Assembly (NCBI GenBank): GCA_947454235.1
Contig: CANGIY010000005.1
Coordinates: forward strand, 1-64,000
Length of the DNA stretch: 64,000 nt
Direction of reading: 5' to 3'
DNA from: Chitinophagaceae bacterium
GTDB lineage: Bacteria; Bacteroidota; Bacteroidia; Chitinophagales; Chitinophagaceae
A program made the position numbers and the translations under genes. This document shows, piece after piece, positions 116 through 38,661 of the stretch (positions are counted from its first letter, which is position 1; each line of letters starts with the position of its first letter). The notes under the pieces were generated by a model, which was not told where the DNA came from, ran no database searches, and saw only the letters and a list, made by a program, of their open reading frames with translations.

Positions 116-153
116 CCGTCCCGAAATTTTCTTTCGAGACGGCCTCTTTTTTT
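116..153 (+). terminator. Rho-independent terminator just left of the prophage
   Basis: Arms CCGTC-CGAAA and TTTCG-GACGG pair around a short T-rich loop, followed by a run of seven T. It lies immediately outside the inferred left prophage end and would stop rightward host transcription. Confidence 0.7.
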
Positions 154-158
154 ATTAA

Positions 159-181
159 TAGGGGGTAAAACGAAAAGTACA
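159..181 (+). repeat. Left terminal transposase-site candidate (L1)
   Basis: The core aAAACgAAAAGTACA points into the element. It aligns without gaps to the reverse complement of 38619-38641, sharing TA at the outer edge and AAAAGTACA at the inner edge. It is the outermost copy on the left and so marks the probable end. Confidence 0.55.
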
Positions 182-454: not shown

Positions 455-477
455 TGTACTTTTCGTTTTGCGGCTTT
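455..477 (-). repeat. Internal transposase-site candidate (L2), inverted
   Basis: Contains TGTACTTTTCGTTTTGCGG, the same motif as the right end, in the orientation opposite to L1. Mu-type ends carry several transposase sites of mixed orientation, so this fits a second left-end site. Confidence 0.45.
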
Positions 478-511: not shown

Positions 512-534
512 TGTATTTTTCGTTTTGCGTGAAG
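512..534 (-). repeat. Internal transposase-site candidate (L3), inverted
   Basis: Contains TGTATTTTTCGTTTTGCG, one substitution from the L2 core, and runs into the inverted repeat at 529-565. It is the third motif copy in the left 400 bp, which otherwise holds no gene. Confidence 0.4.
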
Positions 535-866: not shown

Positions 867-1286
867 TCACGTGTTGTTGTTCCATAACTCTGCTCTGAGG
901 TATGTTTCTGCGTATTTTTTGGCTACTTCGCCCCTATTTTTATCGTATGTTTTGATGAATAGGTAGGCTTTCAGTCTGTTTGCGTCCGACATTTTATTCC
1001 AAATAGCTTCTGTTTTTTTCTTGGAGCTATTGGTTTTTTCGTTGTAACGGTTCCAAAACATATCGAAAGTGATTTCTATTTTCTTTTCGATGATGGTAGT
1101 TGCTTTCGCTTTTGACTTGAAGTCGTTTAGGTGTCCTATACTGAAGGGGAAATTTGAAAATAACCATAGGTATTGCTTGTCAATCAATACTGCTTCAATT
1201 TGAAGAGTATCTATAAATCCCTCGTCGTTGTAGGTTAATTTTATTTCGCCCGTCATTAACTCGGATGTCATTATAAATTGTCTCAT
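867..1286 (-). CDS. Hypothetical early protein with phage replication-initiator-like C-terminus
   Basis: 139 residues. The C-terminal half (about 74-136) has the pattern FWxxY, a K-rich stretch, W-N-K-M, then Y.KT ending YLRAELW. This resembles the helical C-terminal region seen in many phage O-like replication initiators. The N-terminal half is not recognised. Its start codon overlaps the stop of the upstream gene (ATGA, 1283-1286), so translation is probably coupled. It lies at the distal end of the leftward early operon. The similarity is by eye only; a role in replication is inference. Confidence 0.6.
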   Translation of the reverse strand: MRQFIMTSELMTGEIKLTYNDEGFIDTLQIEAVLIDKQYLWLFSNFPFSIGHLNDFKSKAKATTIIEKKIEITFDMFWNRYNEKTNSSKKKTEAIWNKMSDANRLKAYLFIKTYDKNRGEVAKKYAETYLRAELWNNNT

Positions 1287-1732
1287 TGTGCGGCTTGTTT
1301 TAGTTTATTGGATACTGAATTGATGTGCGATAATTTGACGCGTTGCGCGGCTGTTACTATTGAGCTTAGTTCTTTGATAGAATAGTCGTTGAAAGGCTTT
1401 TTGCCTTGTTTTTCTGCCCATTGTTTGGCGTCGTTGACTGTTCTACCTATTGACCTAAAACAGGCTATTATTTTCTTGCGCATTCGGTCTTTTACCTGTG
1501 CTTCATGGTCAAATGCTTTTGAGCTATTGCTTATTGCTTGACGATTTGCGCTACTGGTAGAGTTGCAAATGCTTTTCATTGAGTTTATTAAGGCAATGCC
1601 TTCAATGGGTGTTAAATCTCGCAGGGATGTAGTTCGTCCGTTTGTTTGTTCTGACACGAGGTCTTCCTTTGTTCTGTTGGTACCTCCGGCATTCATTTGA
1701 TTGAGGAGGGCGAAGAATTGCTTTGTGTTCAT
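1283..1732 (-). CDS. GemA/Gp16-like phage regulatory protein (tentative)
   Basis: The frame opens further upstream, but the ATG at 1732 (MNTKQFF) is preferred because it overlaps the upstream methylase stop as ATGA. The 149-residue product has a basic helical C-terminal part (about 80-145) with RMRKKIIACFRSIGR, then WAEKQGKKPFNDYSIKEL. This layout, RKKII then W then an ELxxIV helix, recalls the C-terminal part of Mu Gp16/GemA-family (DUF1018) proteins. These are early-region proteins thought to modulate host DNA or gene expression. The match is weak and a plain hypothetical protein is possible. Confidence 0.5.
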   Translation of the reverse strand: MNTKQFFALLNQMNAGGTNRTKEDLVSEQTNGRTTSLRDLTPIEGIALINSMKSICNSTSSANRQAISNSSKAFDHEAQVKDRMRKKIIACFRSIGRTVNDAKQWAEKQGKKPFNDYSIKELSSIVTAAQRVKLSHINSVSNKLKQAAQ

Positions 1733-2468
1733 GATTGTGTTTTTAGTTGGTTGTGTTGAATAATACACCTAAAGACATATTCGGCACATGCGATTTGGAC
1801 CGCGTTTCCAAGTGCTTTAATACCATCGCAAAATTTGTGAACCCCATCATTGAAGCGTATAACTTCAATGTCTGCATCCGGTTGAGCCCTGCGCCTTGAC
1901 ACAAGTAAATAGTCCTCAGTTGGTGTCCAGCTCGTAGATATTTGCACAGAGCCAATGGGTTGGAAAATGATACTTTGTAGTCGCTTGCTAAAGGGGTAGG
2001 CAACAATGTAAACTCGTTTTCTTTTGTGCGGGAAACCAAAGTCGGATGCTTGTAAACATTGCCATTCAAGGCAATACCCGATTGAGGTAAAGGCGTGTAT
2101 AACAGTCCACATTCCCCACTGTAGTAGCTCTGGGCTGTTTTCCATGATAACATAATCAGGTAAAGACTCGCGTACTATTCGAACAACTTCAAAGAAGAGG
2201 CTACTTCTATAGCCAAAAATGCCATCTCTTTTGAAATTTCCTGCGATAGATATGTCTTGACAAGGAAAGCCCGCCGATAAAATGTTTGTTCTTTCTGCAT
2301 TTCTAATGTATCCATATCGCCTAAGTTTTTAGTGTTGAATCTTTGTTTTAAGTACTGACATGGAAACTTTTCAATTTCGGAATGGAATCTATTTTCAAGT
2401 CCACATATTTCCGCCGCTTCATCAAATCCGCCTATCCCGGTAAATAGTGAGCCATGTGTAAGTGTCAT
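1729..2468 (-). pseudogene. C5-cytosine DNA methyltransferase, frameshifted
   Basis: The first frame (2468 to about 2310) encodes motif I, LFTGIGGFDEAAEI, and reaches LGDMD. In the next frame the sequence continues NAERTNILSAGFPCQDIS, carrying the catalytic PCQ loop. It then gives ENSPELL (motif IV-like ENS), HKRKRVYIVA (motif VIII) and IKALGNAVQ (motif X) to the stop at 1729. All core motifs are present, but one single-base frameshift near 2305-2315 separates motif I from the catalytic Cys. The total length, about 246 residues, is short for the family because the target-recognition region is small. It overlaps its neighbours by 4 bp on both sides, so the gene was once intact. A sequencing error or programmed shift cannot be excluded. 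Confidence 0.8.
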
Positions 2469-3136
2469 GCGAAAAGTGTTTGTTGTGGTTGAATCGTTGT
2501 TACTGGCGTGTGTTTGCCTTTTCGGTCGAATTTATGCGGCTGCTGTTGTGGACTATCTTCTGTGAGGAATCTTGACTTAGCGTACACTGTGTAGTTTTTG
2601 ATTGTAACTACGATGTCCACTCTCTTGGCGATGCGCTTTGCGTGTGCTGATAGTGGTTCGTCTTTTGTATCAGACCAGGAGATTATAATGAATGACTTGT
2701 TTGGGAATTTGTGTATCAGTTTTTTGTACTGGTCTTCGGTGAGCTTCATGTAATCGGCACTGTCTAATACAACGAAGCGCGGCGAGCCGGATGCTTCTAG
2801 GCGTTGCTCAAGGTCTTCTACTGATTCTTTGTGTAGTATCATCACTTTTCCCGCTACTTCCAACATATTGCAAGCTTGCATCGCGTTCTGTAGTGTTTTG
2901 GATATGCCCTCTTCATGGCTGTTGTAGTACACTTTACCGAATTGAGATAGGTATTTGGTGAAGAATAGCGTCCATGTTGTTTTCCCGTTCTTTTCACGCC
3001 CTTTAATAAGCATTCGGAAGTTTTTCTCCGGCTCACCGAACATTTGGAGCCAATGTTCGGTAAATTCGAATGTTGGGAATTTCTTTTCTAGGAATTCAGC
3101 GATTCCTTTTGGCTTTTTTAATTTTTTAGGTTCCAT
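2465..3136 (-). CDS. RecA-like P-loop ATPase (phage early protein)
   Basis: 223 residues with Walker A GREKNGKT at about 46-53 and a Walker B strand FVVLDSAD at 121-128. YYNSHEEG (70-77) sits where RecA/DnaB-like ATPases carry a catalytic Glu. The tail (about 195-223) is Gln/Pro-rich and probably disordered. Small single-domain ATPases of this kind in phages include Sak4-type recombination mediators and replication loaders. It sits in the early operon between ASCH and methylase genes with a 4-bp stop/start overlap. Replication or recombination is the likely role; the exact family is not certain. Confidence 0.7.
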   Translation of the reverse strand: MEPKKLKKPKGIAEFLEKKFPTFEFTEHWLQMFGEPEKNFRMLIKGREKNGKTTWTLFFTKYLSQFGKVYYNSHEEGISKTLQNAMQACNMLEVAGKVMILHKESVEDLEQRLEASGSPRFVVLDSADYMKLTEDQYKKLIHKFPNKSFIIISWSDTKDEPLSAHAKRIAKRVDIVVTIKNYTVYAKSRFLTEDSPQQQPHKFDRKGKHTPVTTIQPQQTLFA

Positions 3137-3147
3137 TTTTGAGATTT

Positions 3148-3549
3148 TTATGTGTTAATGATTTTTGTCACTGTACCTAGGTGGAAAACGAGTACTCTTT
3201 TGTCAGTAGGCGCACCCCATTCTGGTTTTCCAAACTCGTACGTCATCATAATAACTCCAGTTATTATTTTCGGTGCATTCTTGGAATAACCGTTTCTTAG
3301 CATCAACCCATTGTATTTTATTTTACAGTTATGTCGAAGTGCTGCACTTTTAACGTACATATCTAACCCTTTTTGAAGGTCTTCCCCGATTGAGTTTAAT
3401 ATATCTTCTCTTCTTTTTGCCGGAAAGTTTGAAGTATCTATGAGTCGCCTCAAGTAGTACATGTTTAGTTCGCGGTACTCTTCTGTTTTTTCTCCTGAAG
3501 CAATGAGGTCGAACCATTTCTTTTTGATTGTGAGTGTTACCGTTTCCAT
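3148..3549 (-). CDS. ASCH-domain protein
   Basis: 133 residues beginning with the ASCH signature: TLTIKKKWFDLIASGEKTEE, then YRE, and a conserved strand near the C-terminus (VLVFHLGT). ASCH proteins bind RNA or modified nucleosides, and some cleave acyl-cytidines. In phages they occur among nucleotide- and RNA-processing genes. Here it follows a MazG-like gene at 15 bp in the leftward early operon. The domain call is solid; substrate and role are unknown. Confidence 0.8.
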   Translation of the reverse strand: METVTLTIKKKWFDLIASGEKTEEYRELNMYYLRRLIDTSNFPAKRREDILNSIGEDLQKGLDMYVKSAALRHNCKIKYNGLMLRNGYSKNAPKIITGVIMMTYEFGKPEWGAPTDKRVLVFHLGTVTKIINT

Positions 3550-3563
3550 TTTCTTTGAGATTT

Positions 3564-3905
3564 TTATTTGATGTGAGAATAAGAACCGTCGCCGTTAGAC
3601 TTCCACTTTCTTGCCTTATTTTTTTGAAGTTTTAAATACATAGCTCGGGATATGTCGAAGTGGTTGAATCCAAGTCTTGTAGCTGCATCAACCATGCAAC
3701 CAAATACGTCTGCGAGTTCTTCCAGTTGATGTTCTTTGAATTCATCTGGATTATTAGATTGTGATGCGCGTTTTATTTCGAGCCTTAGTTCTTCGATTTC
3801 TTTTGATGCGTGGATTAATGCGCCGTCTGCTGTTGCGAGCGGAAATGTTTCTTTTGACCACTCGATGTGGCTTTCAATTACGTGAGTGAAGATTTTTTCG
3901 TTCAT
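3564..3905 (-). CDS. MazG-like nucleotide pyrophosphohydrolase (DUF550-like)
   Basis: 113 residues, all-alpha. The order is W-x-TFP-x-AT (about 17-26), HASKEIEELRLEI (32-44) and the acidic ELADVFGCMVDAATRLG (64-80). The spaced EExxE and ExxD pairs are the Mg-binding motif of all-alpha NTP pyrophosphatases. The TFP/AT start matches the DUF550 subgroup found in phages. It probably hydrolyses (d)NTPs to monophosphates, adjusting nucleotide pools. It lies between a small hypothetical gene and the ASCH gene in the early operon. Confidence 0.75.
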   Translation of the reverse strand: MNEKIFTHVIESHIEWSKETFPLATADGALIHASKEIEELRLEIKRASQSNNPDEFKEHQLEELADVFGCMVDAATRLGFNHFDISRAMYLKLQKNKARKWKSNGDGSYSHIK

Positions 3906-3908
3906 TTT

Positions 3909-4154
3909 TTAAGTGGTTAATTGTGATTGATTTGTGCTTCTGAGATAGATGCATAAGGTTTTTGGGAGTAGTGCTACCGGGTATTTGTCGTGTTCGTGTG
4001 TTTTATACCAGATATTGTCGATGCGGTGTTTGGTTTTGCGCGGCGGGTGTTCGATAATTTGATGCACCGTTTTTGTTTTGTCTTTGGCGATGTAAAAACG
4101 GTCGCCGACTGCCAGTTCACTTGCAGATACTGTCTGGTTCTTGTTCAGCGGCAT
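3909..4154 (-). CDS. Small hypothetical early protein
   Basis: 81 residues starting at ATG 4154, inside the last 38 bp of the upstream gene, which suggests coupling. It contains VGDRFYIAKDKTKTVHQII followed by basic and aromatic strands, resembling a small beta-barrel phage protein. No catalytic motif is visible. Function unknown; the position and start make it a real gene. Confidence 0.6.
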   Translation of the reverse strand: MPLNKNQTVSASELAVGDRFYIAKDKTKTVHQIIEHPPRKTKHRIDNIWYKTHEHDKYPVALLPKTLCIYLRSTNQSQLTT

Positions 4155-4662
4155 TGGTCAGTTGTTTTAGGATGTTAGTTATTTTTTTGAGGTCTGTTTT
4201 TTCGCCGTCTAATAGCCCGAATTTTTGTTGTTTGATAACCATGTCCTGTTGCCATGACAATAAGCCGTAGAGGGCATATTCAGGGTAAATTTGGACTACA
4301 TCGTAGATGTTCTTGATGGTTTGTGTTTTTTGGAATTCTAGCCATGATTTTAACTTGTAAAAGCGTTCGGCGAGGTTGGGCGTTGTTATTAGGTAAGATG
4401 TGCTGGCAAGGTTTGATAGCGAGTGAATTATTGTTGAGTGGTCCACTCCAATGTACTTGCCTATATCGGTTTTTGATACGCCGCAATATTCTGCAAGGGC
4501 GTAGGATATGCAGTGCCGGAGCTGTACTAGTTTAGGCTCTCTTGAGCGTTTGAATATATCTTCTTCAGTACAACTGAATAGTTGAAGGCAATAGTTTACT
4601 GCATCGGCATGATTTATTGCGCTTAATGAATGGAGGTCTTTGAGATTTTTTGTTTTTTTCAT
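4117..4662 (-). CDS. DnaA domain-IV (origin-binding) like protein
   Basis: 181 residues. Positions about 33-82 carry the DnaA C-terminal DNA-binding fold: R..KLVQLRH as the first helix, ALAEYCGVSKTDIGKYIG as the helix-turn-helix, and DHSTIIHS matching the DH(T/S)TV signature that contacts the DnaA box. There is no AAA+ domain, so it binds but does not unwind DNA. The rest is helical and unassigned. In a Mu-like phage it could direct replication factors, mimic or block host DnaA, or act as a regulator. The domain assignment is strong; the role is inference. Confidence 0.75.
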   Translation of the reverse strand: MKKTKNLKDLHSLSAINHADAVNYCLQLFSCTEEDIFKRSREPKLVQLRHCISYALAEYCGVSKTDIGKYIGVDHSTIIHSLSNLASTSYLITTPNLAERFYKLKSWLEFQKTQTIKNIYDVVQIYPEYALYGLLSWQQDMVIKQQKFGLLDGEKTDLKKITNILKQLTNAAEQEPDSICK

Positions 4663-4676
4663 TGTTGTGAGATTGA

Positions 4677-4732
4677 AGTAAGGGCAACCCCAGAGAGTGT
4701 CCTCGGGACAAGCCCAAGGGATTGCCCTTACT
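4677..4732. repeat. REP-like hairpin between early genes
   Basis: Arms AGTAAGGGCAA (4677-4687) and TTGCCCTTACT (4722-4732) are exact complements. The core has the CAAGGGATTGCCC form also found at 20118, 24106, 33402 and 34826. It fills the gap between two early genes. Confidence 0.75.
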
Positions 4733-4736
4733 GTGA

Positions 4737-5423
4737 TTAATTGGTTTCGGTTGTTTCTTCTTCAATTTTGAAGTCGAATGGTGCAGCTGAGATGTCTAGT
4801 GCAATGTCTTCGCGTTTATCGTTGATGATGTGACTGCATGAAACGAATGCTACGCTTTTTGTTGGTCGGTAAGCATCTTGAATAATTTTCACGGCATCAA
4901 TGAATTTCTCGTCACCAGTATCGTCGGCAAGTTTTTTTAGTTGAAGTACTCTTGACGCTTTCAGGTTTCCTTTTGCATCTCTGCTTAGAAGTTTTTGGAT
5001 TGTGGCAATGAGCATTTTGGTTTTATCGTCGGTGATAAGCGATTCGAGATAAGTACGTACTTTTTCAAGTCCGGCTGTAACGGTATCGTCCCATCCGTCG
5101 TTGAACCTATGTCCAAGTGTAATGGTTACGCCATCTTCAGTAGTAAAGCTGTGCGTCTGAAGGTTAGGCTCTTTATCATAGCACTGTGCTTTTAACTCAA
5201 TAAGTGTTCTGGTTTCATTGAACACAAGTGTTTTGACTTCAGATAGTTTAGCTGATGCTTCTAGGATTAAAGTGTACAAATCGGGGATGGTTTGATTTAC
5301 CAAATCTTTGTACGCTTTTCTTTCTGCTTTCTGCTTTTCTGCTTTCTGCTTTTCTTCGGCTAATACTTGGTCTCTTACTGCTTGTTGTTGCTCTGGTGAG
5401 AGCTGATTGAAGTTGAATTCCAT
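4737..5423 (-). CDS. DUF3164-like Mu-type phage protein
   Basis: 228 residues. After an N-terminal helix with a direct heptad EKQKAEK/QKAE (about 24-36), the C-terminal half reads DAKGNLKASRVLQLKKLADD, then FIDAVKIIQDAYRPTKSVAFVSC. This matches the (D..G.L...RIL.L...) ... (A...I.D...V..SK) layout of DUF3164, a family common in the early region of Mu-like phages. The biochemical role is unknown. It sits downstream of MuB and two small genes. Confidence 0.65.
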   Translation of the reverse strand: MEFNFNQLSPEQQQAVRDQVLAEEKQKAEKQKAERKAYKDLVNQTIPDLYTLILEASAKLSEVKTLVFNETRTLIELKAQCYDKEPNLQTHSFTTEDGVTITLGHRFNDGWDDTVTAGLEKVRTYLESLITDDKTKMLIATIQKLLSRDAKGNLKASRVLQLKKLADDTGDEKFIDAVKIIQDAYRPTKSVAFVSCSHIINDKREDIALDISAAPFDFKIEEETTETN

Positions 5424-5446
5424 TTTATGAAAATTTGATTGTTAGA

Positions 5447-5776
5447 TTATTCGAAAATTTTAAGGTCTTTTGGAGCTGATTTGATTAATTTAACTACGAT
5501 GTCAGTGAAGGTTATTCGAGTGAATTCGTCGTGTCCTGTTTCAGGGATAGCTGATACGATTGAAATGAGTGTAATTGCCTGCGCCCGGCTAAATGATATG
5601 GTATATCGTTCCTGAGCTATTGAGGCTTTTTTTTGAGCTTGGATGAACATTTCCAAAAGCACTTCTGAAACGAGCGATTGAGCATTATTGCTAATGTTGC
5701 AATTGATGGTTGCGAGTTGCTTAGTAATAAGCCCTTTGTAGCAAGCAAAACGGTCGGCGGATAGTTGAATTTTCAT
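5447..5776 (-). CDS. Hypothetical early protein
   Basis: 109 residues, mostly helical, with no recognised motif. It is packed 2 bp from the next gene in the MuA-MuB operon and starts at ATG 5776. A segment about 59-81 (ISFSRAQAITLISIVSAI) is amphipathic. Not identified. Confidence 0.55.
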   Translation of the reverse strand: MKIQLSADRFACYKGLITKQLATINCNISNNAQSLVSEVLLEMFIQAQKKASIAQERYTISFSRAQAITLISIVSAIPETGHDEFTRITFTDIVVKLIKSAPKDLKIFE

Positions 5777-5778
5777 TT

Positions 5779-6144
5779 TTAAAAGCTGTTTAAAAAGTCG
5801 TTAATGATGATTTTGTCGGTGAGCATTGTTTGTTTGGCTTGCTCGTAGCTAGGTGGTGGTGTGATGTCACCGGTAGCGGTAACGTGGAATGCATTTAGAG
5901 TGTTCATTCGAATGAGCGCGTTATCGTCGAAGCTCCATCGGTATCGCCACCATTGCCAGAACTGGTCTTTGGCAGACATTTGGCGAACCCATGACGTTGT
6001 TAGCAGGAATTTATTTGCTACGTGTTCTAGTAGCTGAATGCCTGTGTTGTAGCATAGGAGTGACCATGTTTCGTAATCAATTCCTGTTTGGCGGAATAGC
6101 TCATGTTGAGAGCTGAGTAATGCGGTTGAGGTGGCTGTTGTCAT
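5779..6144 (-). CDS. Hypothetical early protein downstream of MuB
   Basis: 121 residues. A Trp-rich stretch (about 46-70, with QFWQWWRYRW) is distinctive, followed by a proline-rich turn DITPPPSYEQAK. It lies 3 bp after the MuB-like stop. This looks like a conserved small protein of Bacteroidota Mu-like phages, but no function is known to me. Confidence 0.55.
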   Translation of the reverse strand: MTTATSTALLSSQHELFRQTGIDYETWSLLCYNTGIQLLEHVANKFLLTTSWVRQMSAKDQFWQWWRYRWSFDDNALIRMNTLNAFHVTATGDITPPPSYEQAKQTMLTDKIIINDFLNSF

Positions 6145-6147
6145 TGT

Positions 6148-7062
6148 TTATGCTGCTGATTGAAGTGATGTGAGTAATAGGTATTTTTGAATGAGGCGTT
6201 TGATTCTTCGACCGTCGAGTACTACGTCGATGGTTTTGTTTTCTATAGTGTGATTTATTGGTTTTAGTTCATCCCATATTTCGGCAACCACATCTTTATT
6301 TGCGATGCCGTTGGCATGTGCGATTGAGGTAACATCGGCGAACGTGTAGAAATTGAGCGATACGTATGTGCGGGCAAATCTTGAGTCTAATTCGTCGTAT
6401 CCTTTTTTGGCGTATTTAACACCGCGTTCAAAGTCTTTTTTGAGGTTTTCGGTGCCAAATAAAGCCACACTAATGTGGTCTTCGAGTTCATTAAAAAGGT
6501 GAATGAGATTGTTGAGGCATGCAGGTTTTAAGGAATTAGCCTGGTCAATTATCAATAGTGGTTTTCCGGACTTGCGTTTAAAGTGGTCGATAATGACCTG
6601 CAATAGGTCGTCTGTTGATTTGTAGCCATTTCCTGCGCTTGCGCCGATGTTTTTGACGATATGCTCTAGGAATTCTTTTGCGCCCCAAGAACGGCAAATG
6701 ACGCGGTAAACGTTGGTTTTTTGTTTGCTCATGTACCAGTTGACACCAGTGGATTTGCCTGCGCCTGCTTTTTCAGATACGCGGATGAACATAGACTGTT
6801 GCTGTGCGGATTGTAACAACCGATAAATGGAGCGATTGGTTGAGGTTTCTGCTATGTTCCAACCATCGGGACGCCAACCTAGCGTGCGACCAATGCTCAG
6901 CCACATGTCGTCTTTTTTTGTCTCGTACTTATTCTGAAGTATGAGTGTGATTGTGGCGTTAGATACACCGCATTTGTTGGCTACGGCTGTTAGATTTCCG
7001 AGCTGACCTTCGGCTATACGAATCAGGTCAATGATTTCGTTTTTTTGTTGTTCTGTAAGCAT
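6148..7062 (-). CDS. MuB-like AAA ATPase (transposition target activator)
   Basis: 304 residues, close to Mu B (312). An N-terminal helix-turn-helix (about 20-45, AVANKCGVSNATITLIL) is followed by Walker A GAGKST (100-105), Walker B LLIID (169-173) and FARTY (a sensor/Arg region). MuB binds ATP and target DNA, stimulates the transposase and directs strand transfer away from the element. The gene lies 10 bp after MuA in the same leftward operon, as in Mu, and was probably co-transcribed from the repressed promoter near 9637. Confidence 0.9.
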   Translation of the reverse strand: MLTEQQKNEIIDLIRIAEGQLGNLTAVANKCGVSNATITLILQNKYETKKDDMWLSIGRTLGWRPDGWNIAETSTNRSIYRLLQSAQQQSMFIRVSEKAGAGKSTGVNWYMSKQKTNVYRVICRSWGAKEFLEHIVKNIGASAGNGYKSTDDLLQVIIDHFKRKSGKPLLIIDQANSLKPACLNNLIHLFNELEDHISVALFGTENLKKDFERGVKYAKKGYDELDSRFARTYVSLNFYTFADVTSIAHANGIANKDVVAEIWDELKPINHTIENKTIDVVLDGRRIKRLIQKYLLLTSLQSAA

Positions 7063-7072
7063 TTTTGAGATT

Positions 7073-9094
7073 TTATAATTGAGTTAAAAGATTGAAATCG
7101 TCGAAGTGGTCTGAACCACTGATTAAAACAGATTTGTTTGATTTCACCGATTCTGTTTCTGTGAGTGCCTGAGATTCTGTGTTGTTGTGAAGTGCTTTGT
7201 TGTACTGCGCCGGGACTACGAGGTTGGTAATGTTGTAGGTTCCAGTCTTGAGGTTTTCGAGTTCCTGTTTGCGTTGGTTATCAATTGCGGTTAGGTCGTA
7301 TTTCAGTTTCTTGATTCGGTCGAGTTGCGCATCAGGACCAAATCTTTGTATGCGTTCAAAGTAGTTAGCGGTTCCTAGGTATTTGCGGAATAGTGCTTCC
7401 GGTGTGTCTATTGCGTAGAGGTCAACCTGACTAAGGTCTTCGTAGTTGTAAACGATTTCTACTTTTCTGTGGTTGCTAAATACATCTGCATTTGTGCAAC
7501 GGTATAGGTATTCAACGTTGTTGATTTCTGTTATTATTAGTCCGGCACCATCGATGCTTACGGTTTTACGTAAACCGAATAGGAAGTTGATTTCATCTGC
7601 TGATAGCTCGCGTACGTTTGGTTTTTCGCTTATTTCATGCAATTGCGAAGGAGAATGCTCCACTTTGCGATGTTTGTGGCTGTATTTGCTGTAAGCTGTT
7701 GCTCTGTAAGCTTCAATGATGTGTTGGGCTTCTTGTGAAGCGTCGTGATAGTCGAATTTTTCTTTGTCGGCAGCGGCAATTATTTTTTTCAAGAAGGCTT
7801 CTGAGCGATGGTTGTACATGCGGCGTGAGCGTATGCCTTCGCCATAATAGTATAGCGAGTTTTGCATGAACACGGTTTGCAGTGTGCTGAACCAACGTTC
7901 TAGGTTAGATTTGGTATTTGCCTGCGTGCTGATTGTTACTTTAACACCTAGTGTTTCAAATTGCTTGAACAGCAGTTTTGTTTCAGGAGCATCGTGACCG
8001 GGGAATTTGTCAAATACCATTTCGAATGGCAGGTATCCAGTCTTCTGCACTGCCATGTGTAAGGCGTTGATGTTAGACCAGCGGTTTTCGTTGATACAGA
8101 AATCGTAACCTAAAATGTCGCCGGAGTGAACGTCACGTACAACTGTGACGTCAAGGAACATTTTTACGGTTTCGCCTTTTTTATTTACGCCTTTATGAGC
8201 AATGAAGTTGACGCGAGTGCCGTCTATCATCCAACAATCACCCGCAAATAGTGCGTTCTTGAATGGCATGTAAGAACTAATCACTTTGGCGGCTCTGTGG
8301 CTGGTACCAAAACGTTCCTGAGCTGTAAGGAAGTTAACCTTTTGCACCTCAAGCATTTTGCCGATGTAGCGTTTTGATGGCATTTCTAACCCTACCAAGT
8401 TGCACATTTGTTCAATCTTGCGAATGATGAACATATTGGTGTTATTGGCACCCATAGAGCGTAGTTGGAATACCCAACTTTGCAGCTCTTCGATGTCAAA
8501 ACCTTTTGACGCGTTTGTGTTGTTTACTCGAGGTGGTTGTATTGTGTCAGCAATTGAAGTTTTGCCGTTGAGGATAGGTTGTATTTTGCGTTGAAGCACT
8601 CGCGGATTATCGGGTATGTATTTAAGGTTTAAAGGAGCTAAAGCGGCTGAAATAGCTGTCCATGTTGCTGATTTACTTGTGTTAAGGTTGTTTTCGCGGA
8701 TGTAAAGGATTGCTGATTCTAATGCCGCACATGCTTTAGCAAGGTGCTGTTGTAATGCAGGGTACTGTGTGTACTTTGGTAAATACTGGGTAGCGTTTGA
8801 AAGGTCAGGAGTAAATATGTCCAGAGCGGGAGTGAGAGCGAGTGTGTGTACAGGCTCTATTGCGCCCTGAATGTGTAACGGTAGATTTTCCATAGCGTAG
8901 TAGTAGTTTCCGTTTATTTTGCCCCAACGCCACTGTGCTTTGGTGTCTGGAAGTATGTCGCGTGTTTTTAGTGACGGGGGTACTGTTTTACCGTATCGAG
9001 AGCGGTTTTGTCGCAATGTAACATCGGTGATGCCGCAGGAATTGATTATCAATTCTTGTGGAACCCATGTTGTGTTATTGCGAGTTATTAGCAT
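7073..9094 (-). CDS. MuA-like DDE transposase
   Basis: 673 residues, close to Mu A (663). The N-terminal domain (about 8-70) has the Mu-type DNA-binding layout with a W and VTDVTLRQ-type helix (here GITDVTLRQ). The rve catalytic core begins GDCWMIDG (D291, alternative D286). It continues through VFDKFPGH (D362) to SNLERWF (E399), giving a D-36-E spacing. The C-terminal beta-barrel and a tail for MuB contact follow. It cuts the prophage ends and joins them to target DNA in replicative transposition. Inverted terminal motifs at both prophage edges are its likely sites. Confidence 0.93.
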   Translation of the reverse strand: MLITRNNTTWVPQELIINSCGITDVTLRQNRSRYGKTVPPSLKTRDILPDTKAQWRWGKINGNYYYAMENLPLHIQGAIEPVHTLALTPALDIFTPDLSNATQYLPKYTQYPALQQHLAKACAALESAILYIRENNLNTSKSATWTAISAALAPLNLKYIPDNPRVLQRKIQPILNGKTSIADTIQPPRVNNTNASKGFDIEELQSWVFQLRSMGANNTNMFIIRKIEQMCNLVGLEMPSKRYIGKMLEVQKVNFLTAQERFGTSHRAAKVISSYMPFKNALFAGDCWMIDGTRVNFIAHKGVNKKGETVKMFLDVTVVRDVHSGDILGYDFCINENRWSNINALHMAVQKTGYLPFEMVFDKFPGHDAPETKLLFKQFETLGVKVTISTQANTKSNLERWFSTLQTVFMQNSLYYYGEGIRSRRMYNHRSEAFLKKIIAAADKEKFDYHDASQEAQHIIEAYRATAYSKYSHKHRKVEHSPSQLHEISEKPNVRELSADEINFLFGLRKTVSIDGAGLIITEINNVEYLYRCTNADVFSNHRKVEIVYNYEDLSQVDLYAIDTPEALFRKYLGTANYFERIQRFGPDAQLDRIKKLKYDLTAIDNQRKQELENLKTGTYNITNLVVPAQYNKALHNNTESQALTETESVKSNKSVLISGSDHFDDFNLLTQL

Positions 9095-9096
9095 GG

Positions 9097-9294
9097 TTAG
9101 GCTGCTTTTTCGGTTTCTGATTTAGAATTTACTCTAGATAGTTTGGCTATTTTTTTAGCTGCTTTAGCCGCTTCTGCTTGGTATATACCGTAAGCATCAG
9201 TTATTGCTTTGTTGTGGCGTTTGCCTGCAAGTACTTTACCGACATAGTTTTCGGTGACGTTGAATGTTTGTGCGAGTTGCTTTTTGATGTTCAT
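9097..9294 (-). CDS. Ner-like small DNA-binding protein
   Basis: 65 residues. KKQLAQTFNVTENYVGKVLAGK (4-25) is a helix-turn-helix; the C-terminal half is Ala/Lys-rich. It lies 2 bp upstream of the transposase, where Mu places ner, which down-regulates early transcription. The role is inferred from fold and position. Confidence 0.6.
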   Translation of the reverse strand: MNIKKQLAQTFNVTENYVGKVLAGKRHNKAITDAYGIYQAEAAKAAKKIAKLSRVNSKSETEKAA

Positions 9295-9326
9295 TTTTTG
9301 GATTTTTGAGGTTTAGTTAATGTTTG

Positions 9327-9560
9327 TTATGCGTCAATTATGTTCTGTAGCTCATCCCTTGCATTGTCTATGTCTGATTCTGCACCTTCAATAAAAGAGA
9401 TATTGTTTTCCATTTCTTCCCCTTTTGGTGACCCTTTTAAAGAGTCGGGTAAGTTTTCAAAGGCTTGTTCTTCTTCTTGTCTTAACTCTTCGAGTTTGAG
9501 TAGCATGTCACTTAGTTGGTCGATAAGTTGCTCGATTCTTTTTTTGCGTTGCTTGTTCAT
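9327..9560 (-). CDS. Small acidic coiled-coil protein, first early gene
   Basis: 77 residues from ATG 9560. A longer open frame to 9656 would run through the operator and promoter, so it is rejected. The sequence is a Lys-rich start (MNKQRKKRIEQ) and an acidic helix EELRQEEEQAFENLP, then a GEEMENNISFIEGAESDIDNA helix. This fits a small coiled-coil family often seen in Bacteroidota. Function unknown. As the first gene of the early transcript it may be regulatory. Confidence 0.6.
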   Translation of the reverse strand: MNKQRKKRIEQLIDQLSDMLLKLEELRQEEEQAFENLPDSLKGSPKGEEMENNISFIEGAESDIDNARDELQNIIDA

Positions 9561-9629
9561 TTTTTTAAAAAGGTTTTTTAACGTGTTTGTGATTTGCGTA
9601 TTTCGTTTAGTTTTGTCCCGAATACGGTA

Positions 9630-9662
9630 CAAATATATAGAGTTAACTCTACACAATCCAAA
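9630..9662 (-). promoter_or_regulatory. Early leftward promoter with operator palindrome
   Basis: On the minus strand, TATATTTG (9637-9630) is a perfect TAnnTTTG -7 element. TTTG at 9662-9659 can serve as the -33 element. The 14-bp perfect palindrome TAGAGTTAACTCTA (9638-9651) lies between them. A LexA/CI-type dimer bound there would block RNA polymerase and silence transposition genes. Repressor and early genes diverge from this 130-bp gap. Confidence 0.75.
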
Positions 9663-9689
9663 TTTTTTGAGTAAAATCTAAAAATAATT

Positions 9690-10379
9690 ATGAGTATAGT
9701 CGAAAGATTGTTGCAATTCATTGAAAGTAAAGGGCTTAGCAAGAACGAATTTTGCAAGAAAACCTCTCTTTCGAATGGATATTTAGATAAAGTAACGGTC
9801 GTCGGCTCGGATAAAATTGAGAGTATAGTCAAAGCGTACCCTGAGTTAAATCTAAATTGGTTGATTCTAGGCTTAGGGGAAATGATAAAAGTGCAGCGCG
9901 ATATGGTTAATGAGTCGGTTACTGAATATAGAACTGGCAGGGTTAATGAGCCTAAAAAATTGGTGCAGGGAATTCCTTATTACAATGTGATGGCGACAGC
10001 CGGAGTGATAGAGTTATTGGGCAATAAACATCATGCAATACCTGTGGATACTATCATGATTCCCAATTTACCTAAGTGTGATGGAGCTGTGCCGATTACC
10101 GGAGATAGCATGTATCCGTTATTGAAAAGTGGCGATATAGTTTTATACAGGATTGTACAAAACAAGCATAATATTATTTGGGGTGAAATGTATTTGGTTG
10201 CTATTGTGCAAGATGGCGATGAATTTATTTTTGTCAAGTATCTTCAAAAAGCTGAGCGACCTGACTATGTAAAGTGTGTTAGCATGAATACGAATCATCA
10301 GCCTGTTGAGTTCCCTTTCAATAGCATTTTAGCTCTTGGTTTGGTTAAGGCTAGTATCAGAATCAATAATGGTTTTTAG
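9690..10379 (+). CDS. CI/LexA-type phage repressor (S24 peptidase)
   Basis: 229 residues. An N-terminal helix-turn-helix (about 14-45, SKNEFCKKTSLSNGYLDKV) is joined to an S24 domain with catalytic Ser140 in GDSMYP and Lys183 in FVKYLQK. The usual cleavage-site Ala-Gly is visible as ATAG near 102-105. It should dimerise on the palindrome at 9638-9651, keep the lytic genes off and self-cleave during the SOS response. It is transcribed divergently from the early operon. Mu c lacks S24, but many other Mu-like phages use this type. Confidence 0.9.
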   Translation: MSIVERLLQFIESKGLSKNEFCKKTSLSNGYLDKVTVVGSDKIESIVKAYPELNLNWLILGLGEMIKVQRDMVNESVTEYRTGRVNEPKKLVQGIPYYNVMATAGVIELLGNKHHAIPVDTIMIPNLPKCDGAVPITGDSMYPLLKSGDIVLYRIVQNKHNIIWGEMYLVAIVQDGDEFIFVKYLQKAERPDYVKCVSMNTNHQPVEFPFNSILALGLVKASIRINNGF

Positions 10380-10394
10380 GGTTATTTAACGGTA

Positions 10395-10423
10395 TTGCTG
10401 TTTTGGCGGCAATGCTACTTTTG
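10395..10423 (+). promoter_or_regulatory. Promoter of the cargo lipoprotein gene
   Basis: TTG (10395-10397), 18 bp, then TACTTTTG (10416-10423), a perfect Bacteroidota TAnnTTTG -7 element 20 bp before ATG 10444. A dedicated promoter fits expression from the quiescent prophage. Confidence 0.65.
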
Positions 10424-10443: not shown

Positions 10444-10971
10444 ATGAATAAAATTGCCTGTGCTTTTGTCGCACTTGTGCTTTTTAGCGGTTGTGAAAAT
10501 AGTGTTCCTTCAAAAAGGACGACGGAGCAAATATTTGATTCTGTTGATAAAGCGGTTGCCGCTTCTAAAAATGACACGGTTGGGAAGATTGAGTATGAGT
10601 TGTATAAGTCCTACCGATTGGGTAAAAACTGGTATTCTGTTGTTGCAAATAAGATACAACCTTCGATTGGTGACTTTAAAAACAATTGTAAATACATAAT
10701 TCGCTCGGTTCATCGTGAAATTAATTCAGATAGCATTGTTGTTGATGTTTATGACGACGATAAAGCTCGGGTACTTTATACTGAAACGTCGCATGAACGA
10801 CCATTAACTAAAAAGGAATTGGTGTACGTCAATAGTCATCTTATGGCAATATGGAGCGGCAAGTTATTAGCTTCTACGCCTGACGATGAATTTGAAATGG
10901 AGTATTTGCCAAGTTCTTATGATACCCCTCTATTTCAATATCATTCACGCGAAAGGTATAAACCTTGGTAG
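10444..10971 (+). CDS. Predicted lipoprotein, prophage cargo
   Basis: 175 residues. The first 17 form a lipoprotein signal with lipobox LFSGC (Cys17), so the mature protein is probably membrane-anchored in the envelope. The remainder is mixed alpha/beta with Lys- and Asp-rich segments and ends YHSRERYKPW; no family is recognised. It has its own promoter and lies just after the repressor, a position typical of morons that alter the lysogen. It overlaps the open frame of the next gene, but that gene's true start is downstream. Confidence 0.7.
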   Translation: MNKIACAFVALVLFSGCENSVPSKRTTEQIFDSVDKAVAASKNDTVGKIEYELYKSYRLGKNWYSVVANKIQPSIGDFKNNCKYIIRSVHREINSDSIVVDVYDDDKARVLYTETSHERPLTKKELVYVNSHLMAIWSGKLLASTPDDEFEMEYLPSSYDTPLFQYHSRERYKPW

Positions 10972-11009: not shown

Positions 11010-11780
11010 ATGAAAAGAGTTCTATTTGCATTGATGGCATTCATTGTTTGCCAATCGGGTTACGGTCAAATTACATTGGAGCACTCGTATGCGCCAAATA
11101 TTTCGGTGTCTGTTGTCAATATTGAAGGTGATGGATATAAATATCAGGCAATTGACCCTAACTCCAAAAAGTTATTGCTGTTTAATACAGATCATTCACT
11201 TTGGAAAACAATAACATTTGACACAACTGGAGCTAGTTTTTTATCGGCTTCTTATATTAGTAAGCACCTATTTAATTCAGACGATGCACTAGAAGTTTAT
11301 TTGGAAACTAATTATCGAAATGGAAGCTATGTTGGTAGAATAGTAAATGAAACAGGTTCTATTCTTAATACTTTTGATAGTGCCTATTACTCATCAGTGT
11401 ACAATTTGTCTGGAAGTTGGAAGTTAAATGTCGTGAAGATGGATAGAAGTACTCGTCCAGCGAAAATATATTCAGATATTTACTCGCTTCCCGGGTCAAT
11501 GCCCGGAACTGCAATACCCGGGGTAAATAGCGGTGGTGGAAGTAGCTCCTTCCCTAATCCGACAAATTCGGCTATGACTGTTCAATATGACTTAAACGGT
11601 TCAAGTACTGCAATGATGGTTATTACAGATGCCTCCGGTAAGATTGTAAAACAAATGATGTTGTCAAGCTTGTTTTCTGATGTGTTAATTAATACTGGTG
11701 AACTAGCTCGAGGAAATTATTTTTATTCAATTTCGACAGAAAAAGGTTTGATTGACAGTAAACAATTTATTGTCGAGTAG
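11010..11780 (+). CDS. Secreted protein with T9SS type A sorting domain, prophage cargo
   Basis: 256 residues from ATG 11010 (MKRVLFALMAF), which starts a classical signal peptide ending near SGYGQ. The middle is a beta-rich domain of unknown role. After a Gly/Ser linker the last 75 or so residues fit the T9SS type A C-terminal domain: FPNPTNSAMTVQYDL, VITDASGKIV, then GNYFYSISTEKG and KQFIVE. This directs export through the type IX system and attachment to the cell surface. A phage gene using the host's T9SS suggests surface modification or superinfection exclusion (inference). A strong terminator follows. Confidence 0.85.
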   Translation: MKRVLFALMAFIVCQSGYGQITLEHSYAPNISVSVVNIEGDGYKYQAIDPNSKKLLLFNTDHSLWKTITFDTTGASFLSASYISKHLFNSDDALEVYLETNYRNGSYVGRIVNETGSILNTFDSAYYSSVYNLSGSWKLNVVKMDRSTRPAKIYSDIYSLPGSMPGTAIPGVNSGGGSSSFPNPTNSAMTVQYDLNGSSTAMMVITDASGKIVKQMMLSSLFSDVLINTGELARGNYFYSISTEKGLIDSKQFIVE

Positions 11781-11799: not shown

Positions 11800-11833
11800 A
11801 AAATGCTCCGGATATTTTCGGAGCATTTTTATT
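11800..11833. terminator. Bidirectional rho-independent terminator
   Basis: AAAATGCTCCG and CGGAGCATTTT pair perfectly around an 8-nt loop with a following T-tract and a preceding A-tract. It ends the repressor-cargo transcription unit. Confidence 0.85.
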
Positions 11834-12683: not shown

Positions 12684-13127
12684 ATGTCGAAAATCGAACG
12701 TACAGTTTCCCGACAACATATACAAGCTGGGAATACGGCTGGTCAGCATATTGAACATAGGGAGATAGTAAACGATGATTTATTGCCAAGTGCAGAAGAA
12801 ATTGCCAAATTGCATGCAGTCGACCCTGAAATAATGCATTGGCTAAAGGCGAGAGCTGAAAAAGAACAAGATTTTAGACACACAGCTTACAAAACTAGAA
12901 ATGATATAATTGGTAAAAACGAGTCTGCAAAACGTAGAATAAATGTTTTAGGACTCATTTTAGGTTTCTTGGTTTTGATAACGGGTATGGTTTTCAGTTA
13001 TTTTCTTTTGATAAATGGACATTCAATTACAAGTACAATCTTTGGAGGTGGTACTCTTGTGTTTGGAGTATCTCTTTTCGTAAATAGAGATAAGGGTAAA
13101 GAAGAGGATAAAGCTCCCAAAAAATAA
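12684..13127 (+). CDS. DUF2335-family membrane protein
   Basis: 147 residues. The segment LLPSAEEIAKLHAVDPEIMHWLKARAEKEQ (split here only for description, about 33-62) is the DUF2335 hallmark: LP...L..Y/H...P......A..EQ. It is followed by two hydrophobic helices at about 88-108 and 112-130, and a charged tail. The family is frequent in prophages and other mobile DNA. A role in the lysogen's membrane, perhaps exclusion, is inference. It converges on the 13130-13456 gene with only 2 bp between stops. Confidence 0.7.
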   Translation: MSKIERTVSRQHIQAGNTAGQHIEHREIVNDDLLPSAEEIAKLHAVDPEIMHWLKARAEKEQDFRHTAYKTRNDIIGKNESAKRRINVLGLILGFLVLITGMVFSYFLLINGHSITSTIFGGGTLVFGVSLFVNRDKGKEEDKAPKK

Positions 13128-14738: not shown

Positions 14739-15908
14739 TTATTTTCTGTGCATTAGTATTCCTCTTCTTTTAGCGTCCAGCTTTTTCAAGTCAACCGGAT
14801 AGGCAGTTGTGGCTCTGTCGTAATTGGCGATAATCATGTAAGGCTCGTCTTTGTAGTATTTGATGTATGCAGTGTTTTCGGCTTGCTCTGATACAATTCT
14901 ACCTTTAAAGAACCAGACCTCATCGGGGTTTTTAAGTATTTCTTCAAACGCAGGTATCATTTTCCAACGCCCTTCAGTTCGTTTTTTTAACAGTTTGTCG
15001 TAAAACTCCTGGTCGAAATGGATAGATGTTCCGTTGAGGTCTTTTATGTCGAATTCACCTGCGTCCTTTGCCATGTTATGCCAGTCGATGTATGCTTGTT
15101 CCGGTGATGACGGCTCAGGAGCGGGTTTAAATTCATTGGTGGAGTAAATGTGTTCAGCGGTAGGCATGTTGTACGTTCTATCGAATGATAAATCTGACTT
15201 TTGCAGGTTATTCATCATTGGGTAGTTATTGTCGAAGATTACCTCTGTTACGCCTGCGTTGTTTTGGCAATAAGGCGGTATCTTATTGTCTTTTATGGAT
15301 TTATGAGCAGGCATTAAAGCTTCATTTGTTTCTTTAGCTGGAATAATGCGACATCGACAATGAAAGTGTACCGGAGGAGATATTTTTTTCCAGAAACCGT
15401 TGTTTTTAGGATAAGCTACACCGTCAAGTGGTCCGCATATAGGGCATGTTTTTTCATCCTCGATGGTTGACCATTGAAGGATTTCACTTTCGTTGTATTG
15501 TTGCCATTCTACGGCAGTTTGGGCTGAAGCGAGGGCAAATTCGCGTTCGGTTTTTAAATGACCGATGTTAAACACAAGACCTGCTTTGGTGCAGTCGTCG
15601 CGGTATTGCTTGAATGGTTTTACCTTACCGTCATTATCAAGTAATAGTTGGTTGTATTTTTTCATTTCCTCGAGCGACTTTGCCGCAGCGAAAGAATATA
15701 TGTTTGCTCTCAGTTTTGCAGCGAGGCGGTTTTCGGGGTCTGTGTAGCCAAATTTTAGAGGCGGGATAGCCTCATTGAGTGCGCTGTTTAGGTGATTTCC
15801 AATTCGAAGTGAGAGTTCGGCAGGTATTTGGTGTGGTCCGATTTTGCCGCTGTATATTTCTTTTGCGAGGTCGTTGATAAGGGTTTCAAATGGGTTCGCA
15901 TCCGCCAA
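14739..15908 (-). CDS. Mu F-like minor head protein with C-terminal nuclease-like domain
   Basis: 389 residues, from a TTG start at 15908 (no ATG nearby). The N-terminal part is helical. Residues about 125-190 carry the Mu F Zn motif CPICG (C155, C158) and HFHCRC (H181, C184, C186). A Pro-rich linker (262-270) leads to a C-terminal domain (about 275-389): FDIKDLNGTSIHFDQEF, then FEEILKNPDEVWFF, YIKYYKDEPYMIIANYD. This resembles the PBECR group of barnase/EndoU/RelE-like nucleases fused to phage head proteins. Such a domain might be delivered with DNA. The nuclease call is by pattern only. Confidence 0.75.
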   Translation of the reverse strand: MADANPFETLINDLAKEIYSGKIGPHQIPAELSLRIGNHLNSALNEAIPPLKFGYTDPENRLAAKLRANIYSFAAAKSLEEMKKYNQLLLDNDGKVKPFKQYRDDCTKAGLVFNIGHLKTEREFALASAQTAVEWQQYNESEILQWSTIEDEKTCPICGPLDGVAYPKNNGFWKKISPPVHFHCRCRIIPAKETNEALMPAHKSIKDNKIPPYCQNNAGVTEVIFDNNYPMMNNLQKSDLSFDRTYNMPTAEHIYSTNEFKPAPEPSSPEQAYIDWHNMAKDAGEFDIKDLNGTSIHFDQEFYDKLLKKRTEGRWKMIPAFEEILKNPDEVWFFKGRIVSEQAENTAYIKYYKDEPYMIIANYDRATTAYPVDLKKLDAKRRGILMHRK

Positions 15909-18111: not shown

Positions 18112-19608
18112 TTAAAAGCGTTTTGAGTTTTGTTTTTTAAATATGGTCGTTGCTCCGGGTTTGAGGCGAAGTGAAAGTTCGTTGAGCATCCAAATGCCGC
18201 CTTCGCATGCATCGGGACCATCGTCGTGTGCTTTAGAGCCGGGTGCAAAACAGATGAATTGTTCATCGAGTCGTTTCATTCCGGGATTATCCCTTTCTTT
18301 TTCGTTGAGGAATAGCTTGTAATTTCGAACCAACGGTTCTAGTAAGGCGTCTATACGAATGAACTTGTCGTCTTTTTTTCGGGTGTCTCCGGAGATTGGG
18401 ATTATAGGAGTATTTTTTGCTTTCGCATAGTTGTAGAACTCCTGAATGATGGTTCCCTGAAGGAAAACTTCCTCCATTCGGTAATAGCAGGATTTATTCC
18501 CGACTATGGCTTTGATTTCATAGTGCCATTCAATCATGCGAGCAATAGAGCATTGTTCTACAAATGCTTTGATAACGTGGAATTCGTCACCGATTTTCCC
18601 AATAAGCACGGTTGCTTTGTAGTCGGATTTCTTTGACTCTCTGTATGAGGGGTCGGTATAGCATACTAAATGGGAGTACTTTTCGATTGGGAGCGCGGGT
18701 TTGTAATTCATTTCTTTAAATACCGTGCCTTCGACAATAGGGTTATTGAAGTATTCTTTTTGAACTGACAGGTAGGATTTTTGCGCCAAAGCGCGGTTGA
18801 TTTGCTCTATTGAGTTTTTCTCTGGCCATGTAGGATGTCCTTTGCCGTCGAGGATATTAACAATATCGGTGTGGTCTGCAAATGTAGATGCGCGAACTAC
18901 ACAGCAGTCTTTTGCGATGCGGTTGCCGCAAAATATAATGAGTGTTGGTGCAGATATAGAACGTGTTCCGATTGTGGCGTTTTCAATCCATTCCCAAGTC
19001 TTTTTGACCATGTCGGGATTTCGCACGTCCTGGTCAGTATCGCAGTCGTCAAATAGAAGCACATCGGGGCGTTCGTTCTTTGCTGTTTTGGCTCCTCGTG
19101 GTGGTTCGCCTATGCCTACAGCGCGGAAAGCTGCGCCGTTTTTAATGATGAATTCGGATGAGGTCCATTGCCCTAGCGTTTCCTGTTTTCCATAGTCGTG
19201 TATGATTCTAGCGTTGGACTCTAGGTTTACTTTGTAGGGCATGAGTAACCTTGCGGCGTTTTCATGCGTAGAGCTGACCAACAGGACGTGGCGTTTGCGT
19301 TCGGTAAGCACCAGATAAAGGGTTTCGAACATGGTGCGGGTTGACTTGGCGCATTCGCGAGACCACATTCGTACTTCGTACCATTCCGGGTTTTGGATTA
19401 TTCGCTTGGTAGCTTCTTTGTGGAATTTGGCGGGTTTGGCTTTTTCGGTAGGGAAATAGTATGCGAACCACTGTTCGGGGTTTGCCTCGAGCTTTTTTAT
19501 TCTGACTTCTTGTTGTGCGGCTGTTTCTTCAGTATCGACAGTTATTTCTGCTGTTTTTGCCTGAAGAAATTTATACCAATCTTTGAGTTGTTCTTTTATT
19601 GAAATCAT
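18112..19608 (-). CDS. Terminase large subunit (Mu gp28-like)
   Basis: 498 residues. The ATPase domain has Walker A SRECAKST (83-90) and Walker B DVLLFDD (182-188). The nuclease domain has its first acidic residue in VCYTDPSYRES, and ends with HDDGPDACEGGIWML, the usual DxxD-type C-terminal metal site. It cuts and pumps DNA into the prohead. For a Mu-type phage this means headful packaging from the prophage into flanking host DNA. Its start overlaps the small-subunit stop by 4 bp. Confidence 0.93.
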   Translation of the reverse strand: MISIKEQLKDWYKFLQAKTAEITVDTEETAAQQEVRIKKLEANPEQWFAYYFPTEKAKPAKFHKEATKRIIQNPEWYEVRMWSRECAKSTRTMFETLYLVLTERKRHVLLVSSTHENAARLLMPYKVNLESNARIIHDYGKQETLGQWTSSEFIIKNGAAFRAVGIGEPPRGAKTAKNERPDVLLFDDCDTDQDVRNPDMVKKTWEWIENATIGTRSISAPTLIIFCGNRIAKDCCVVRASTFADHTDIVNILDGKGHPTWPEKNSIEQINRALAQKSYLSVQKEYFNNPIVEGTVFKEMNYKPALPIEKYSHLVCYTDPSYRESKKSDYKATVLIGKIGDEFHVIKAFVEQCSIARMIEWHYEIKAIVGNKSCYYRMEEVFLQGTIIQEFYNYAKAKNTPIIPISGDTRKKDDKFIRIDALLEPLVRNYKLFLNEKERDNPGMKRLDEQFICFAPGSKAHDDGPDACEGGIWMLNELSLRLKPGATTIFKKQNSKRF

Positions 19609-33365: not shown

Positions 33366-33430
33366 AATCCCGAGACTACGCTCGGGACAGGCAGAATTTT
33401 TAGGGCAACCACTAGGGATTGCCCTTACAA
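33366..33430. repeat. Paired REP-type hairpins
   Basis: TCCCGAGACTACGCTCGGGA (33367-33386) is followed by AGGGCAACCACTAGGGATTG then CCCT (about 33402-33426). The two REP forms stand side by side between the LysM-like and fibre genes. Confidence 0.7.
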
Positions 33431-33442
33431 ATAAAAGTTGTT

Positions 33443-38618: not shown

Positions 38619-38641
38619 TGTACTTTTGGTTTTGCGGTTTA
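38619..38641 (-). repeat. Right terminal transposase-site candidate (R1)
   Basis: TGTACTTTTGGTTTTGCGGT ends 21 bp from the porX stop. Its reverse complement matches L1 at the left end in 15 or more of 23 positions. It marks the probable right end of the element. Confidence 0.55.
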
Positions 38642-38661
38642 TTTATTGGTTTGTTTGATGT

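Follow-up and report, generated by a model that had tools for sequence, protein, structure and literature searches.

Can a temperate phage of the Bacteroidota use the type IX secretion system (T9SS) of its host to place a protein of its own at the cell surface? Proteins that take the T9SS route are exported by Sec, captured through their C-terminal domain by the translocon, freed of this domain and then attached to the cell or released. The question is raised by a stretch of 64,000 nucleotides from a Chitinophagaceae bacterium (contig CANGIY010000005.1, positions 1 to 64,000; hereafter the window), in which a preliminary description had singled out one gene as prophage cargo with both a Sec signal and a T9SS type A domain.

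The cargo gene encodes a T9SS sorting domain

The reading frame lies on the plus strand at 11010-11780, from the ATG at 11010 to a stop codon ending at 11780, exactly as the preliminary description had placed it, and encodes 256 amino acids. The proposed check of its C-terminus against TIGR04183 gave a significant match (E 5.5e-10; 39.1 bits versus a cut-off of 23) that spans profile positions 2-71 of 72, and PF18962 was matched above its cut-off as well (E 8.2e-10; 39.3 bits versus 27). The best solved match to a profile of the cargo family is the sorting domain 8glj_D (8.1e-8). As defined by these three comparisons, the Por_Secre_tail sorting domain comprises residues 181-255 (11550-11774, plus strand). 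The T9SS half of the earlier claim is thereby established, and its other half stands as a judgement by eye, the N-terminus MKRVLFALMAFIVCQSGYG|Q being Sec-like. The frame that carries both elements is open and undamaged.

Structure prediction resulted in a model of modest quality (pLDDT 63, pTM 0.48) with an all-beta N-terminal domain (N-domain). A fold search of the PDB with this domain returned no match at E<=0.001, the best Foldseek E-value being 4.2e-3; among other beta folds, a weak and non-significant likeness to propeller proteins was observed. The model suggests binding rather than catalysis, and the cargo is probably non-enzymatic.

Both the all-beta model and the presence of phage tail proteins among the weak fold matches might point to a structural or tail protein of the virion whose sorting-domain match is incidental. 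We regard this as most improbable, given the curated domain match, the Sec-like N-terminus, the location of the gene away from the tail genes and on the repressor strand, and the fact that most relatives have no phage neighbours. In agreement, the best structural match in BFVD is a phage protein (E 2.5e-4) that itself goes by the name 'Secretion system C-terminal sorting domain'; three of the best 50 matches listed share it, and with a modest model it is mainly the names that matter.

The gene lies within a Mu-like prophage

The DNA around the cargo gene encodes a MuA-like transposase (7073-9094, minus strand; phrog_310, 1.3e-23), a MuB-like protein (6148-7062, minus strand; phrog_296, 1.4e-36), an S24-type repressor, the terminase large subunit (TerL; 18112-19608, minus strand; phrog_38, 1.4e-67) and portal and neck proteins. 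The 18-mer GTACTTTTSGTTTTGCGG occurs five times in the window with up to three mismatches, compared with 0.17 expected, and four of the copies are located at the prophage ends as MuA-site-like repeats. Three of them mark the left end (163-180, minus strand, three mismatches; 456-473, plus strand, exact; 513-530, plus strand, two mismatches) and one the right end (38620-38637, plus strand, exact); the fifth match, at 7612, is weak (three mismatches). Comparison of the flanks identified AATAA at 152-156 and 38643-38647 as the likely 5-bp target duplication, although a second AATAA at 38639-38643 means that the end can be placed only to within about 4 bp. Joining the two flanks restores a 3' end in which a short spacer separates the porX stop codon from a strong hairpin with T after it. 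This hairpin (116-142, minus strand), which the prophage severs from the gene, is the likely porX terminator; as judged by eye, nine of nine relatives from the genus likewise have a hairpin after this stop codon.

On the basis of the end repeats, the AATAA copies and the joined flanks, the Mu-like prophage extends from about 157 to 38642, and its insertion has parted the stop codon of porX from the terminator. With both ends located, the cargo gene lies about 11 kb inside the prophage. The earlier assignment as prophage cargo is hence correct: 11010-11780 is a genuine cargo gene with a T9SS tag, carried by a Mu-like prophage. The neighbourhood of porX was described properly too. The gene (38662-40221, minus strand) is intact, is 83-87% identical to its counterparts in nine genus relatives, and encodes a genuine PorX with Response_reg (2.8e-25) and PglZ (1.2e-19) domains. 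As the genome also contains SprA (2444 bits, over the cut-off), the host qualifies as a T9SS bacterium on these two markers. The caution that the pairing with porX might be fortuitous was well placed: for a transposable phage that leaves porX intact, the siting is probably chance.

Three further features of the prophage are recorded here. Since it parts porX from its terminator, porX transcripts may run into the right end of the prophage. A MuF-like protein (14739-15908) has a C-terminal PBECR2 nuclease-like domain (1.7e-12), and the protein encoded at 33419-34825 has a K1-lyase C-terminal domain (1.7e-15) and is perhaps a tail depolymerase.

A low-GC cassette adjoins the repressor

Matches to phage families bear out the position previously given for the cargo gene, between the repressor and the late genes: it is flanked by the CI/S24-type repressor (9690-10379, plus strand; 44% identical to the repressor of a Porphyromonas phage, L042) on one side and by minus-strand neck genes on the other. 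Downstream of the repressor follow, in this order, a putative lipoprotein of 175 amino acids (10444-10971, plus strand), the cargo, a weak 89-aa open reading frame (ORF), a 95-aa ORF and a small membrane protein (12684-13127, plus strand). The last belongs to the PHROG moron category (phrog_3996, 1.7e-13) and is also present in two Porphyromonas phage records. The lipoprotein, whose start MNKIACAFVALVLFSGC is lipoprotein-like by eye, has no detectable relatives: a search of 195 genomes of the host's taxonomic family at E<=1e-4 recovered only the protein itself, a scan of IMG/VR that is sensitive to close relatives only recovered none, and tblastn against 50,697 phage records gave no match. PADLOC assigned no family at E<=0.01 to the five cassette ORFs.

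The preliminary description had also credited this lipoprotein with a host-type promoter. A motif TTG-N18-TACTTTTG, of the Bacteroidota promoter type, is indeed present at 10395-10423 on the plus strand, 20 nt upstream of the lipoprotein ATG, where it overlaps a hairpin (10391-10416). Within 3.6 kb around the cassette, the plus strand has two matches to this consensus compared with 0.46 expected, the other copy being located within the repressor gene; further matches, one per strand, lie in the divergent control region (9587 and 9630), and the window as a whole has nine. Downstream of the cargo gene, a terminator-like hairpin is seen at 11800-11829 on the plus strand, in a region where such hairpins are no more frequent than in shuffled sequence (three found, mean 2.5); the count of sigma-70-like motifs in the cassette region does not exceed that of shuffles either.

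The cassette stands out by its base composition. The GC content, taken per 1 kb, is 0.33-0.37 over 10-13 kb and 0.37 already from 9 kb, versus 0.38-0.48 in the rest of the prophage, and the GC3 values of the lipoprotein and cargo genes (0.32 and 0.29) lie below the 0.45-0.47 of MuA, MuB, TerL and portal; the repressor gene is itself low (0.38). The divergent composition that typifies morons is thus seen in both GC and GC3. A second moron trait, insertion between phage genes together with absence from relatives, is seen as well. From at least 490 confirmed IMG/VR contigs with a related TerL the best 80 were taken, and 50 of these, mostly the longer ones and many of them fragments, were searched with TIGR04183 (L132, L133 and L135, each above 20 kb, were left out). 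No contig reached the cut-off and one gave a weak match of 12.9 bits, as expected of a moron. Likewise, tblastn of the 50,697 phage records with the cargo, its best relative and the sorting domain of another member gave no match, and IMG/VR scans with three members of the cargo family and MuA, able to detect close relatives only, retrieved none. Most likely, the cargo and the putative lipoprotein form a low-GC moron cassette that follows the repressor gene.

The early module runs opposite to that of related phages

A search with TerL matched 169 phage records, the best 20 at 41-47% identity and including Porphyromonas, Bacteroides and Elizabethkingia phages, while the window MuA matched 12 records weakly. 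Porphyromonas phage008a_KCOM2797 (BK068090), hankyphage jmh43_hp (PV107405) and Elizabethkingia phage TCUEAP3 (OK632026) resemble the window phage in their annotated MuA and MuB, a repressor-type gene, a TerL of 42-44% identity and the same order of late genes. They differ from it in the opposite orientation of the early module and, according to tblastn of the phage collection, in having no relative of the cargo.

This inversion concerns MuA, MuB, the repressor and the distal early genes (867-10379). The module is opposite in all four of the relatives that bear early genes, out of five compared (L045 gave no early-gene match). Moreover, 24 of 85 phage loci yielded a homologue of the gene at 2465, which is opposite to TerL in all 24, whereas in the window both genes are on the minus strand. 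In the usual phage layout the cassette would lie on the left-end side of the repressor, before the phage terminus; due to the inversion it faces the neck genes instead. An assembly error or a rearrangement is possible as the cause.

The inversion raises the prospect that the cassette is no cargo but host DNA enclosed between two prophage parts. This is very unlikely, because end repeats occur at 163-530, at 38620 and weakly at 7612 but nowhere near the cassette, and because the target duplication and the joined porX 3' end fit a single insertion. In addition, the low-GC island that holds the cassette includes the membrane protein gene at 12684-13127, a member of a phage moron family.

Clusters of TerS, TerL and portal genes akin to those of the window phage were also encountered elsewhere, namely in the same genome (L211 13063-18182, contig C31) and in the genomes G005 (L208 13098-18523, contig C87) and G176 (L210 1-4514, contig C85). 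None of the three has a MuA match; contig C87 of G005 has a MuB-like match at a distance of about 11 kb. The cluster in the host's own genome has host-like flanking genes by eye, and in G005 the protease, capsid and tail genes are on a separate contig. These clusters may be remnants or a split set resembling a gene-transfer agent.

The cargo belongs to a patchy, mainly chromosomal family

Full-length relatives of the cargo (E<=1e-12) are present in eight other genomes among the 195 of the taxonomic family and in nine others among 298 of the order; four genome contigs contain relatives too. With a profile of the N-domain only, built from 17 rows, members were detected in 11 of 195 genomes of the taxonomic family and 18 of 396 of the order, the samples overlapping and each including the host's own. 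The preliminary description would have yielded to a core host gene found outside prophages; the family is accessory, though mainly a host family. TIGR04183 is matched by 18 of 18 members in alignment A2, and PHROGs gave no family at E<=0.01 for 18 members. G432, G485 and G500 have frames of 532-539 amino acids that contain three tandem copies of the N-domain. The family thus comprises T9SS proteins of about 270 amino acids with an N-domain marked by LYNLDHSxWK...LFNSD, which share N-domain and sorting domain with the cargo at 25-37% identity but occur mostly in chromosomal contexts, whereas the cargo is in a prophage. No close relative of the cargo exists among them: identity is 34-37% at best, and in a tree of 29 rows, where it is 34%, the cargo has no well supported placement. 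The closest full-length relative adjoins a 1287-aa protein (L009 10863-14726) that matches the PADLOC candidate defence families PDC-S37 (2.9e-137) and Hhe (1.3e-72).

We compared 35 genomic contexts, some of them shortened by contig ends, using as queries phage proteins of the window and of 11 phage loci, a set that phages unlike the window phage would escape. Matches were obtained in two of the first 24 contexts (L160 and L161) and in one of the 11 others (L202), there through one protein only, a relative of phage repressors. Only the window's own context is a demonstrable prophage, and two adjoin phage-type capsid genes. From the G-genome loci of the first 20 contexts, 126 flanking proteins were scanned, 69 with PHROGs and Pfam and 57 with PHROGs. 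The best 25 each of 44, 130 and 52 families included no terminase, portal or capsid name; an integrase name did occur among them for the 69 proteins, and tail-fibre, tail-spike and virion-structural names for the 57. Ten large flanking proteins examined with Pfam included PKD/CHU_C, DUF5122 and other T9SS-type proteins, GldM, a tRNA synthetase, a tyrosine integrase in L024 and, adjoining the member in L139, a Peptidase_S74 protein, with a domain also known from phage tail spikes.

The members in G005 (P0003) and G176 (P0004), at L160 7403-8065 and L161 2871-3701, were considered as possible prophage cargo. Each has a phage-type protease gene at a distance of about 290 bp, from which it points away, and capsid genes follow the protease gene, with tail genes too in G005. 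P0003 is broken in its sorting domain and P0004 is intact. DNA similarity between the two genomes extends no further than the stop codon of this gene, and the flanks differ. Their contigs gave no match to MuA or MuB, the window MuA being a weak probe; terminase and portal are on other contigs.

A link between the cargo family and porX was also looked into. In 302.6 kb of sequence from 20 contexts, porX was found near a relative twice, at about 1.8 kb (L028 9397-13506) and about 5.5 kb (L143 2460-10417), compared with about 0.08 expected if one porX per 4 Mb is estimated. One of the 20 has a gld-type cluster (L141 912-8760; GldM by Pfam, its neighbours by position), and L142 a partial GldK-like match. 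Within the taxonomic family, however, member and porX are close in G097 only; they are far apart on one contig in G094 and G136 and on different contigs in the other genomes, G176 having no porX at that threshold. None of 11 further contexts gave a T9SS core match. We regard this link, drawn after the fact, as weak.

In summary, the cargo family is a patchy, accessory, mainly chromosomal host family with some members near mobile DNA. Because of this, the phage might gain nothing from the cargo, which would then be a passenger: an accessory T9SS gene of a host, gained by illegitimate recombination and exported with no advantage to phage or lysogen. The scarcity of phage proteins around its relatives speaks for this; the low identity to any of them and the apparent uniqueness of the phage, with MuA at E<=1e-20 in one of 396 genomes of the order, the host's own, are in line with it as well. 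Nevertheless, the frame has stayed undamaged with its Sec-like start and sorting domain, and the cassette layout, in which a promoter motif adjoins the repressor and another moron-type gene is nearby, also argues against it. We thus judge the passenger explanation unlikely, if the most serious of the alternatives.

T9SS cargo in known phages

Phage-encoded T9SS cargo as a principle is already in print and not new. Bellas et al. (2020; PMC7468147) report, in the excerpts available, that a Bacteroidetes phage of 76 kb encodes three proteins of the T9SS type A kind, presumed to use the host secretion system; they call the finding a unique occurrence and suggest superinfection exclusion. According to the same excerpts, this Cryophage has a circular genome and is not the Mu-like phage of that paper, unlike the window phage, which is Mu-like. 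Its cargo, an endoglucanase, a GH39 protein and a PA14 protein, differs in kind from that of the window, and its genes are presented there as variable and not as a repressor-linked cassette. Sorting-domain proteins in a phage cluster are mentioned in the part of PMC6949934 available, and the hankyphage repressor in that of PMC12135933; in PMC10367356 the terms T9SS and type IX are absent. Taken together with the BFVD phage proteins named for the sorting domain, these partial sources show that 'rarely noted', as the preliminary description put it, is apt in the sense of rarity and would be wrong in the sense of never. Titles and abstract openings of the open-licence literature on T9SS and phages name no T9SS cargo gene in a Mu-like prophage. 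What is probably new is that a transposable prophage carries such a gene in a repressor-proximal cassette, and that this cargo is probably non-enzymatic.

Repressor-linked exclusion morons such as lambda rexAB offer a parallel: they are located just downstream of the repressor, and expression in the lysogen is expected, as for the cassette. Lambda Rex works inside the cell, whereas the window cargo is predicted to be exported.

Model for a surface function of the cassette

We propose that the locus is a lysogenic-conversion cassette, a moron of a Mu-like prophage, whose T9SS-exported cargo acts at the host surface, and assign this reading a probability of about 0.72. As its position suggests, the lysogen would express the lipoprotein and the 256-aa protein from the cassette's own host-type promoter, perhaps with added read-through from the repressor gene. 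By analogy with known T9SS substrates, the protein would pass through Sec, the type IX translocon of the host would capture its C-terminal domain, and upon removal of this domain the all-beta N-domain would be attached at the surface or released. There it could alter the interactions of the cell, most plausibly access of competing phages or contact with other cells. Thus, the prophage probably alters the set of proteins that the host displays on, or sheds from, its surface, and the role of the cargo may perhaps be exclusion of other phages. It would be a distinctly doubtful step further to see in the lipoprotein and the exported protein a surface exclusion pair, with which the prophage coats or edits the host surface against competing phages, and hence the first such system to depend on the T9SS.

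Small and testable, the cassette lends itself to asking which of the two, phage or host, gains from T9SS export. If it is expressed in the lysogen, it would show that temperate Mu-like phages of the Bacteroidota recruit the signature secretion system of this phylum for lysogenic conversion.
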